Positions 6,533-47,516 of a stretch of 64,000 nucleotides of DNA are shown here, in pieces. The translations under genes were made by a program, and so were the position numbers. The stretch spans positions 62,001 to 126,000 of the forward strand of contig DASXGW010000001.1 in assembly GCA_036488875.1 (NCBI GenBank), given 5' to 3'. Position 1 is the first letter of the stretch; the number at the start of each line of letters is the position of its first letter. Source of the stretch: Candidatus Baltobacteraceae bacterium. GTDB taxonomy: Bacteria > Vulcanimicrobiota > Vulcanimicrobiia > Vulcanimicrobiales > Vulcanimicrobiaceae. Under the pieces are notes generated by a model. The model was not told the DNA's origin and ran no database searches. It was given only the letters and a program-made list of their open reading frames with translations.

Positions 6533-7052
6533 TCTCATCCTGAGCGTAGGCGCGCAGCGCCGAAGTCGAAGGGCAAGCGCATCTCCGGCACTGTCATCCT
6601 GAGCGTAGGCGCGCAGCGCCGAAGTCGAAGGGCAGGCGCATCTCCGGCACTGTCATCCTGAGCGTAGGCGCGCAGCGCCGAAGTCGAAGGGCAAGCGCAT
6701 CTCCGGCACTGTCATCCTGAGCGTAGGCGCGCAGCGCCGAAGTCGAAGGGCAGGCGTATCTCCGGCACTGTCATCCTGAGCGTAGGTCGCAGCGCCGAAG
6801 TCGAAGGCAGGCGCATCTCCGGCACTGTCATCCTGAGCGTAGGCGCGCAGCGCCGAAGTCGAAGGGCAGGCGCATCTCTGGCACTGTCATCCTGAGCGTA
6901 GGCGCGCAGCGCCGAAGTCGAAGGGCAGGCGTATCTCCGGCACTGTCATCCTGAGCGTAGGTCGCAGCGCCGAAGTCGAAGGGCAGGCGCATCTCCGGCA
7001 CTGTCATCCTGAGCGTAGGCGCGCAGCGCCGAAGTCGAAGGGCAGGCGCATC
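6533..7052 (+). repeat. Nine-copy tandem array of a 59-bp REP-like repeat (left array)
   Basis: Nine near-identical units, with TGAGCGTAGG beginning at 6541, 6600, 6659, 6718, 6777, 6834, 6893, 6952 and 7010 (period 57-59 bp). Each unit reads TCATCCTGAGCGTAGG, a GC-rich core GCGCGCAGCGCC able to form GGCGC-GCA-GCGCC, then GAAGTCGAAGGGCA, then a short spacer (GCGCATCTCCGGCACTG). The units starting at 6777 and 6952 carry GGTCGCAGCGCC in the core instead. The array ends exactly at the stop of the minus-strand GIY-YIG gene. No ORF here looks real. An oppositely oriented array lies on the other side of that gene. Confidence 0.95.
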
Positions 7053-7364
7053 TCAGCGGTTGCTGGAGCGCTCGTGCTTATGCGAACCTCTGGCAAACTT
7101 ACCGATCATCTTCCAGTCGCCGCGAATCAGAGCCGCCTTCTTGCGGCGACTCCATCTCTTAAGCTTCTTCTCCCAGTCGATAGCATCGCCAACGTAATCG
7201 AAAGCCGTAGAGTACACCAATACGACGGGACGTCGAGAAAACGTATAGCTGTCCTCATCGAAGCCTTCGTTGTGCTCCCATACCCTCCGCTCGACGTCGT
7301 TCGTTATACCGACGTAGTAGCTGCCATCGCGGCAGAACAGCATATAGACGAAATACCCTTCCAT
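7053..7364 (-). CDS. GIY-YIG nuclease domain protein
   Basis: Single-domain GIY-YIG protein of 103 aa (UPF0213/YhbQ-like size). The N-terminal strand pair reads YFVYML...YYVGIT, followed by the catalytic-Arg helix VERRVWEHN and a conserved Glu in AIDWEKKLKRW; the C-terminus is basic (WSRRKKAALI, SHKHERSSNR). The fold cuts DNA with one divalent metal, but the role of small stand-alone members is mostly unknown. The gene sits between two arrays of the same repeat in opposite orientations, and its TGA lies at the edge of the left array. That layout recalls REP-associated transposase (RAYT) genes between REP elements, though RAYTs are Y1 enzymes. A role in moving or copying the repeat is inference. 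Confidence 0.9.
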   Translation of the reverse strand: MEGYFVYMLFCRDGSYYVGITNDVERRVWEHNEGFDEDSYTFSRRPVVLVYSTAFDYVGDAIDWEKKLKRWSRRKKAALIRGDWKMIGKFARGSHKHERSSNR

Positions 7365-7407
7365 ACCGGCACAACTGCGCAGTGCCGCGCATTTGTCTAG
7401 TCTGCGC

Positions 7408-7636
7408 CTGCCCTTCGACTTCGCGCCCTGCGGGCGCTACGCTCAGGATGACAAGAGGTGAGACGCCCTGCCCTTCGACTTCGCGCCCTTCGGGCGCTAC
7501 GCTCAGGATGACAAGAGGTGAGATGCGCCTGCCCTTCGACTTCGCGCCCTGCGGGCGCTACGCTCAGGATGACAAGAGGTGAGATGCGCCTGCCCTTCGA
7601 CTTCGCGCCTTCGGGCGCTACGCTCAGGATGACAGT
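7408..7636 (-). repeat. Four-copy array of the same REP-like repeat, inverted (right array)
   Basis: CCCTTCGACTT starts at 7411, 7471, 7532 and 7593 (period 60-61 bp). Read on the minus strand each unit is TCATCCTGAGCGTAG, a GC-rich core, then GAAGTCGAAGGGCA, the same unit as the left array in opposite orientation. The core stem differs from the left array: GCGCCC-GCA-GGGCGC in two units, GCGCCC with a TTC/GAA loop in the second, and a one-base-shortened version in the fourth. Spacers read AAGAGGTGAGATGCGC on the plus strand. The outermost unit supplies the last codons and stop of the adjacent isomerase gene. Confidence 0.95.
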
Positions 7637-35101: not shown

Positions 35102-35449
35102 ATGGCAGCAACCAAGAAATCCCGCAAGAAGTCGACGCGCCGCAAAGGCTCGACGCGAAAAAAGAGCTCCAGTCGCAAAAAGAGCTCCAGTCGCAAAAAG
35201 AGCTCCGGTCGCAAAAAGAGTTCGGGCCGAAAAAAGAGCTCCGGGCGTAAGAAGAAGAGCTCGAAGCGAAAGTACGGCGCCAAGGCCGGAAAGAAAGTCA
35301 AACGCGCCATGCACGAGATGAAACATGGGGAGTTGCGTTCGGGGCGTTCGGGCAAAAAAGTCAAGAGCCGTAAACAAGCGATCGCCATCGGTTTGAGCGA
35401 GGCGCGTCGCGAGGGCGGTAAGGTTCCGTCTCGCAAAAAGCCGAGATAG
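35102..35449 (+). CDS. Lysine/serine-rich basic protein with DUF6496-like C-terminus
   Basis: Highly basic protein of 115 aa. Residues about 15-60 are short repeats of the form SRKKSS / GRKKSS; the C-terminal 55 residues (KYGAKAGKKVKRAMHEMKHG, then SGRSGKKVKSRKQAIAIG, then LSEAR) match DUF6496, a domain common in soil bacteria. The N-terminal part resembles the tails of eukaryotic histone H1 and bacterial HC1/AlgP-like proteins, so a DNA-binding or compacting role is likely but inferred. It is divergent from the SDR gene (67-bp gap) and 15 nt upstream of the DUF4337 gene. The repeats are matched by 18-bp DNA repeats, so copy number could change by slippage. Confidence 0.85.
   Translation: MAATKKSRKKSTRRKGSTRKKSSSRKKSSSRKKSSGRKKSSGRKKSSGRKKKSSKRKYGAKAGKKVKRAMHEMKHGELRSGRSGKKVKSRKQAIAIGLSEARREGGKVPSRKKPR
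35155..35255 (+). repeat. In-frame 18-bp tandem repeats in the Lys-rich gene
   Basis: AAAAAGAGCTCCAGTCGC and close variants (CCGG for CAGT, TTCGGG for CTCCGG) recur about six times with an 18-bp period. Each encodes KKSSSR or KKSSGR. The three-codon-multiple period keeps the frame whatever the copy number. Confidence 0.9.
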
Positions 35450-46846: not shown

Positions 46847-46879
46847 CGAGTTGCATAGCGGGCGGCTTCCCGCGTTGTC

Positions 46880-46950
46880 ATCCTGAGCCCTTCGACTCGC
46901 TTCGCTCGCTCAGGATAAACGAAGTCGAAGGGCAGGCGCATCGCAGGACT
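46880..46950 (+). repeat. Isolated copy of the REP-like repeat
   Basis: TCATCCTGAGC at 46880, then CCTTCGACTCGCTTCGC and CTCGCTCAGGA forming an inverted pair, then GAAGTCGAAGGGCAGGCGCAT as in the 6.5-7.6 kb arrays. The inner part is replaced by a different hairpin (CCTGAG...CTCAGG). It lies between the glycosyltransferase and the small exported protein gene. The 132-bp gap holds nothing else I can support. Confidence 0.85.
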
Positions 46951-47431: not shown

Positions 47432-47516
47432 GCAGCCCTCCGTCGCGAGGTCGGCAACGGTGATCTCCAGCCGCCCGGACAGGCGTTTAGGGCTCAGGAT
47501 GACAAAGCTGGAGCGT

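Follow-up and report, generated by a model that had tools for sequence, protein, structure and literature searches.

A small GIY-YIG nuclease gene lies between two inverted arrays of a REP-like repeat in the 64,000-nucleotide stretch of Candidatus Eremiobacterota DNA analyzed here (the window, whose positions are used below). Because the same pairing of gene and repeat recurs in distant bacterial phyla, we infer that the enzyme probably spreads these repeats, with movement, cutting, and copying as the presumed steps. The association, and its specificity relative to Y1 and DUF559 genes, are about as strong as sequence comparison allows.

The GIY-YIG locus

The locus comprises the following features, with two outlying copies of the same repeat listed last.

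6533-7041, plus strand: left array, nine head-to-tail TGTCA-tagged REP-like copies with a 38-bp core and a 59-bp period
6535-6572, 6594-6631, 6653-6690, 6712-6749, and 6771-6807, plus strand: left cores 1 to 5
6828-6865, 6887-6924, 6946-6982, and 7004-7041, plus strand: left cores 6 to 9
7042-7052, no strand assigned: spacer GCAGGCGCATC, from the last left copy to the GIY-YIG stop codon
7053-7364, minus strand: intact GIY-YIG nuclease gene, 103 aa (PF01541, E = 7e-17)
7412-7634, minus strand: right array, four copies opposite in orientation to the left array, with a 60-61-bp period
7412-7451, 7472-7511, 7533-7572, and 7594-7632, minus strand: right copies
46876-46931, no strand assigned: degenerate solo or dimer copy of the repeat, TGTCATCCTGAGC...GCTCAGGATAA...CGAAGTCGAAGG
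47492-47504, minus strand: half-copy of the repeat (TGTCATCCTGAGC)

The initial annotation had described nine and four inverted copies around a small GIY-YIG gene, and our coordinates and reading frame agree with it. It also had the stop codon bordering the array; the distance to the last left copy is 12 bp, and the start codon is 48 bp from the first right copy. Its comparison with RAYT transposases and REP elements, but with another class of enzyme, fits a PF01541 protein that has copies of a dispersed REP family on both sides.

The left array turns its hairpin side toward the gene and its tags outward, with TCTCA replacing TGTCA in the first copy, and TRF delimits a 59-bp tandem array at 6535-7054 (score, 970). 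The inner palindromes of the two arrays differ (GGCGC-GCA-GCGCC on the left, GCGCCC-GMA-GGGCGC on the right), while the tag, the ends, and part of the spacer (GCAGGCGCATCTC) are common to both; the spacer next to the stop codon is also found between copies in both arrays. With up to one mismatch allowed, the core TCATCCTGAGC has 18 matches in the window against 0.67 expected, a count reached in 0 of 100 shuffles. All repeats in the window are intergenic. The locus is bordered on the left by genes for a short-chain dehydrogenase and an 82-aa open reading frame (ORF) and on the right by a gene for a xylose-isomerase-like TIM barrel protein. Elsewhere in the window, a tandem array (35144-35271) consists of about seven copies of an 18-bp unit with the consensus AAAGAGCTCCAGGCGAAA.

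Repeat structure and genomic copies

The repeat reads, in order, TGTCA tag, outer arm TCCT, GAG, GTA, inner hairpin, GAAGT, CGA, and outer arm AGG; GTAG occurs inside the element, not as its terminal tag. The genome contains 34 distinct variants, 30 of which pair in the inner hairpin (at least 5 pairs required, tandem G.A counted); shuffles give 1.2. The outer arms covary across genomes, with 32 different 4-mers around GAG...CGA, all of them complementary (for example, TCCT/AGGA, CCCT/AGGG, GGCT/AGCC, TGGT/ACCA, and TCCC/GGGA). Based on this covariation, GAG and CGA would face each other between two stems as tandem sheared G.A pairs. The outer stem of the window variant is proposed from covariation; a standard DNA folding-energy model did not support it (z = -0.9). 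The TGTCA tag is present in 193 of 245 copies near GIY-YIG genes. Judged by these features, the repeat is REP-like: it carries a TGTCA tag, and its predicted hairpin has two covarying levels and conserved tandem G.A mismatches. The arrays are best explained as REP elements of a C/TGTC-tagged superfamily, in a variant with conserved tandem G.A in the stem.

Mapping the repeat genome-wide, as the initial annotation had proposed, gave at least 71 copies in the 3.7-Mb, 97.6% complete genome with the exact pattern, none with the reversed pattern, and 85 with a broader pattern. Most are single and dispersed, and the 13 copies in the window form the largest cluster. Related genomes and homologous contigs with names assign this genome to Candidatus Eremiobacterota.

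The GIY-YIG protein

An alignment of 35 sequences shows no variation at residues Y7, Y17, G19, R27, H31, E65, and K66. The structure model (pLDDT, 90) matches the fold of UPF0213 structures and of Slx1, a nuclease for branched DNA; profile and fold matches include 1zg2, 1ywl, and Slx1 structures. Judging from these matches, the protein is a member of a REP-associated GIY-YIG subfamily with a UPF0213/COG2827-like fold and an intact active-site motif, and it is predicted to cleave DNA. Since the motif residues are invariant and the fold matches UPF0213 and Slx1, the protein is plausibly a structure-selective nuclease for REPs in hairpin or cruciform form. The fold and motif residues resemble those of UPF0213/COG2827 (YhbQ-like) proteins and Slx1, but the subfamily differs from UPF0213/COG2827 in a conserved C/S-Y/F-T..RRP signature and in its REP flanks; no repeats accompany the housekeeping-type UPF0213 genes of relatives.

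In several proteins the repeat supplies the last codons and the stop of the GIY-YIG gene (tails such as PSTGSG and LRQAQDD). Such repeat-derived C-terminal tails occur at L039, L041, L042, L043, L047, L066, L086, L142, and other loci, and repeat-encoded 3' ends of this kind are a likely source of similar tails in protein databases.

Association across phyla

A homologue scan of about 85,000 species' genomes recovered 80 homologous GIY-YIG loci from Eremiobacterota, Bacteroidota, Ignavibacteria, Brocadia, Leptospiraceae, and Peribacteria. Far from never lying near repeats, which by the initial annotation would have refuted its proposal, homologues have a tagged copy within 350 bp at 78 of these 80 loci, and at 16 of 16 and 27 of 28 loci in two other sets; copies stand on both sides at 54, 11, and 25 loci of the three sets, respectively. 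Tagged hairpins reach 3.55 per kb within 300 bp of the 80 genes versus 0.22 per kb beyond 2 kb, a 16-fold difference, and ten permuted cores reach only 0.03 to 0.26 per kb near the gene. Pooled over the three sets, 160 of 211 nearest copies carry the tag outermost (TGTCA...TGACA orientation), and at 56 of 79 loci the inverted-repeat score lies above the 99th percentile of controls. Peribacteria loci have copies mostly on the 3' side only. The motif also lies beside every one of the closest homologues in 16 genomes of the window's family.

The tagged hairpin beside each gene belongs to the host genome's own sequence type. Across 12 genomes, a fraction of 0.71 of the dispersed copies among the first matches listed for each genome shared the loop type of the gene-flanking copies, versus 0.29 after permutation (reached in 0 of 20,000 permutations). 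In Bacteroidota, different TGTCA-tagged palindromes (TGTCATTTCGA...GAAATC and TGTCATTCCCGC...GCGGGAATC) flank additional small GIY-YIG genes.

CGTC-tagged perfect palindromes, enriched about 10-fold near the genes, flank GIY-YIG genes in named records from Sinorhizobium, Shinella, Rhizobium, Neorhizobium, Azospirillum, Novosphingobium, Sphingobium, Neisseria gonorrhoeae, and Aeromonas. The alphaproteobacterial copies have 8- to 9-bp stems and 4- to 5-nt loops. GIY-YIG genes of R. tumorigenes and Sinorhizobium K101 (L260 and L263) are exceptions, with no REPs beside them.

Co-occurrence of gene and repeat

An equal spread of repeats over genomes with and without the gene, which the initial annotation had named as contrary to its idea, is not what the window's family shows, although some gene-less genomes carry repeats. 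Each of the 16 gene-bearing genomes of this family reaches at least 7 copies (median, 89), against 5 of the 21 that lack the gene (median, 1), by counts made with the pattern TGTCANSCYGAGN{2,32}TCGARGS (Mann-Whitney p = 3e-6; Fisher p = 1.6e-6 at 7 or more copies). Three of these five gene-less, repeat-rich genomes are only 63 to 77% complete. Outside the family, the count is 0 in 22 of 23 genomes. The exact pattern TCATCCTGAGC...GAAGTCGAAGG badly undercounts repeats in relatives because the outer arms differ genome by genome.

Across 248 Bacteroidota genomes, the gene-repeat odds ratio is 33 to 57, an approximate range because the pattern undercounts and misses CGAG types. About half of the repeat-bearing Bacteroidota genomes have no such gene. 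One with no intact gene (G095) retains a dead GIY-YIG copy with internal stops and the motif beside it. Another, the 3.9-Mb G076, carries 235 copies of a TGTCANNNTGAGC..GTCGA repeat; we found no small GIY-YIG gene in it (only UvrC-length or other large ones), no Y1_Tnp, and a weak DUF559 match, and its mover may have been lost or may be different.

Evidence for mobility

In Azospirillum lipoferum 4B, a cassette of REP dimer, GIY-YIG gene, and REP dimer splits sufB and sufC (L259). The corresponding sites of A. oryzae, A. ramasamyi, and strain B510 contain neither the gene nor REPs, and the flanks are about 94% identical. Because all three relatives lack both, the gene and REPs arrived at this locus together. 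The filled and empty sites, examined for a target-site duplication, differ over about 30 bp at the junction. A different GIY-YIG/CGTC cassette occupies the same intergenic spot in Shinella sp. PSBB067 (L303), and the position shared by two different cassettes suggests that sufB-sufC may be a preferred insertion site for GIY-YIG/CGTC-REP cassettes. On the Sinorhizobium medicae plasmid pSU277_1 (L305), a truncated GIY-YIG gene with about 30 similar codons lies after a CGTC REP that has decayed slightly, and matches to equivalent fragments occur on nine S. medicae plasmids.

Dispersed copies in Pinibacter are often inverted pairs with a 12-bp gap, resembling REPINs (PMC3116915). A weakly informative comparison of 40 dispersed clusters in syntenic, 80 to 90% identical pairs gave 4 empty and 6 shared sites. 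One of two putative exact 24-bp gaps in such pairs proved on realignment to be a larger dimer-type insertion and was rejected.

These sites bear on the main rival explanation, in which a free-standing, homing-type selfish GIY-YIG gene inserts into preexisting REPs and has no role in spreading them. GIY-YIG domains are common in homing endonucleases, and repeats persist in genomes without the gene; in addition, insertion sequences are known to target REPs (PMC1525189). The empty Azospirillum sites weaken this explanation, since gene and REPs are both absent from them, and so do the complete inverted copies, tags outward, on both sides of the gene and a repeat abundance that tracks gene presence. 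We consider it unlikely.

Specificity for the GIY-YIG subfamily

Within the same Bacteroidota genomes, tagged hairpins occur at 30 of 30 GIY-YIG loci, 1 of 30 Y1_Tnp loci, and 2 of 30 DUF559 loci, and we rejected the DUF559 nuclease as the repeat's partner on the last count. No repeats lie beside the other small GIY-YIG gene of the window's genome, a housekeeping-like UPF0213 gene, and none of 13 loci from other GIY-YIG subfamilies in relatives has tagged hairpins.

A second small GIY-YIG gene (L002, G000:C7:40020-40280), free of repeats, adjoins a cyclophilin-type peptidyl-prolyl isomerase gene; in its relatives L060 and L061 the GIY-YIG frame runs into the isomerase as one ORF of about 270 to 280 aa. 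Another small GIY-YIG subfamily is present as three identical or near-identical tandem copies at L273 and L291 in the Bacteroidota genome G206 (C1:1733881-1734727 and C1:1384667-1385513). Their units of 317 and 323 bp each include the apparent end of the adjacent tRNA gene, an apparent tandem amplification or integration at tRNA genes.

A host nuclease that trims or resolves REP hairpins, with the repeats spreading by slippage, gene conversion, or another enzyme, would account for a fold near UPF0213 and Slx1, structure-specific nucleases on branched DNA, and unequal recombination can lengthen tandem arrays like the one at 6533-7041. However, a host repair gene need not sit among repeats in nearly every genome, and both the housekeeping-type paralogue in the same genome and the other subfamilies in relatives lack them. 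Loss of an antagonist should raise repeat numbers, yet most gene-less genomes contain few repeats or none. This explanation strikes us as improbable.

Still less credible is mobilization by RAYT (Y1/IS200-like) transposases with the GIY-YIG gene as a bystander. The layout and dispersed hairpins do resemble REP/REPIN systems (PMC3116915), and 29 of 32 repeat-bearing Bacteroidota genomes examined encode Y1 transposases. Against this, the window's genome (97.6% complete) has no Y1_Tnp (PF01797) match, nor does G076 with its 235 copies, and the repeat flanks none of the 30 Y1 loci at the gene; the single motif match at a Y1_Tnp locus is more than 1 kb from the gene and chance-like. We exclude RAYT as the partner because the window's genome lacks Y1_Tnp and Y1 loci elsewhere are not flanked by the repeat. 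That gene and repeats merely share intergenic space, where the window repeats do lie, is a negligible prospect in view of the 16-fold local enrichment, the permuted-core controls, and the matched Y1 and DUF559 controls.

Proposed mechanism and significance

We favor the reading that the small GIY-YIG nuclease is the dedicated partner of these REPs, analogous but not homologous to RAYT transposases. The nuclease would recognize the unpaired TGTCA tag together with hairpin or branched DNA formed by the repeat, a substrate proposed because the nearest characterized fold relative is the branched-DNA nuclease Slx1. It would then cut at the element, and repair or replication would place a copy of a single repeat, of a head-to-head dimer, or of the entire cassette of repeats and gene at a new site. 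The richest repeat cluster may be the autonomous cassette, which would be why the gene sits there, and solo copies elsewhere may be nonautonomous derivatives. In the initial annotation's suggestion of GIY-YIG-driven repeat copying, the association and co-occurrence have held up and a RAYT partner is excluded; the copying itself we infer.

We also lean, more cautiously, toward a broader proposal, in which small GIY-YIG nucleases would be the transposase-like enzymes of every C/TGTC-tagged palindrome, among them CGTC REPs, dRS3, and the TGTCAnnCTGAG...CGAAG repeats found in Bacteroidota and Eremiobacterota. They would then constitute a second, independent REP-mobilizing machinery in many bacterial phyla and a prokaryotic class of mobile element driven solely by a GIY-YIG nuclease. 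If true, systems of the REP/REPIN type have more than one origin and use unrelated enzymes.

Comparison with known systems

A REP with a dedicated nuclease is a known kind of system; the GIY-YIG enzyme class is not known there. Small, mobile GIY-YIG genes also encode free-standing homing endonucleases, for example the Seg proteins of phages. To our knowledge, no multicopy hairpin family accompanies them, and the window-type repeat also spreads without the gene. As in an insertion sequence, terminal inverted repeats bound the GIY-YIG gene. Within the open-licence literature, we found no publication tying GIY-YIG, COG2827, or UPF0213 to REP, RAYT, dRS3, REPIN, or the repeat strings.

CGTC REPs, a major bacterial hairpin repeat family, were defined by Di Nocera 2013, where TGTC variants and head-to-head dimers were recorded and the Neisseria and Rickettsia members were equated with dRS3 and RPE-4/6 (PMC3733652). 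There, tyrosine and other transposase classes were checked and the elements were said to "apparently lack a dedicated transposase"; the text nowhere mentions GIY-YIG and reports no associated enzyme (PMC3733652). The GIY-YIG nuclease is a candidate for this missing partner. Both kinds of repeat have a C/TGTC tag followed by a palindrome, with an A-T stem start in many copies, and head-to-head dimers, and both are hosted by Bacteroidota, Spirochaetes, and Alphaproteobacteria (PMC3733652). Sinorhizobium meliloti and Azospirillum lipoferum, on the species list of that study, have GIY-YIG genes flanked by CGTC REPs. The window copies have an unpaired C/TGTC tag at one end. Their anatomy departs from the simple, uninterrupted 8- to 9-bp stem, 4- to 5-nt loop, and CCA-like tail of CGTC REPs: the outer stem is short, tandem G.A mismatches are conserved, and there is a second, inner hairpin. 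Head-to-head dimers, the predominant arrangement in that superfamily, were seen in Pinibacter and Azospirillum; the window arrays are head-to-tail.

A close parallel in organization is RAYT (TnpA-REP) with its GTAG REPs and REPINs. Both systems join a short unpaired tag to a hairpin and occur as dispersed copies and inverted dimers; in both, tandem clusters adjoin a single small enzyme gene, and the sequence type is genome-specific (PMC3116915, PMC2817692, PMC3733652). The two differ in the tag, T/CGTC(A) here and GTAG there, and in the enzyme, a GIY-YIG nuclease here and an HUH/Y1 tyrosine transposase there.
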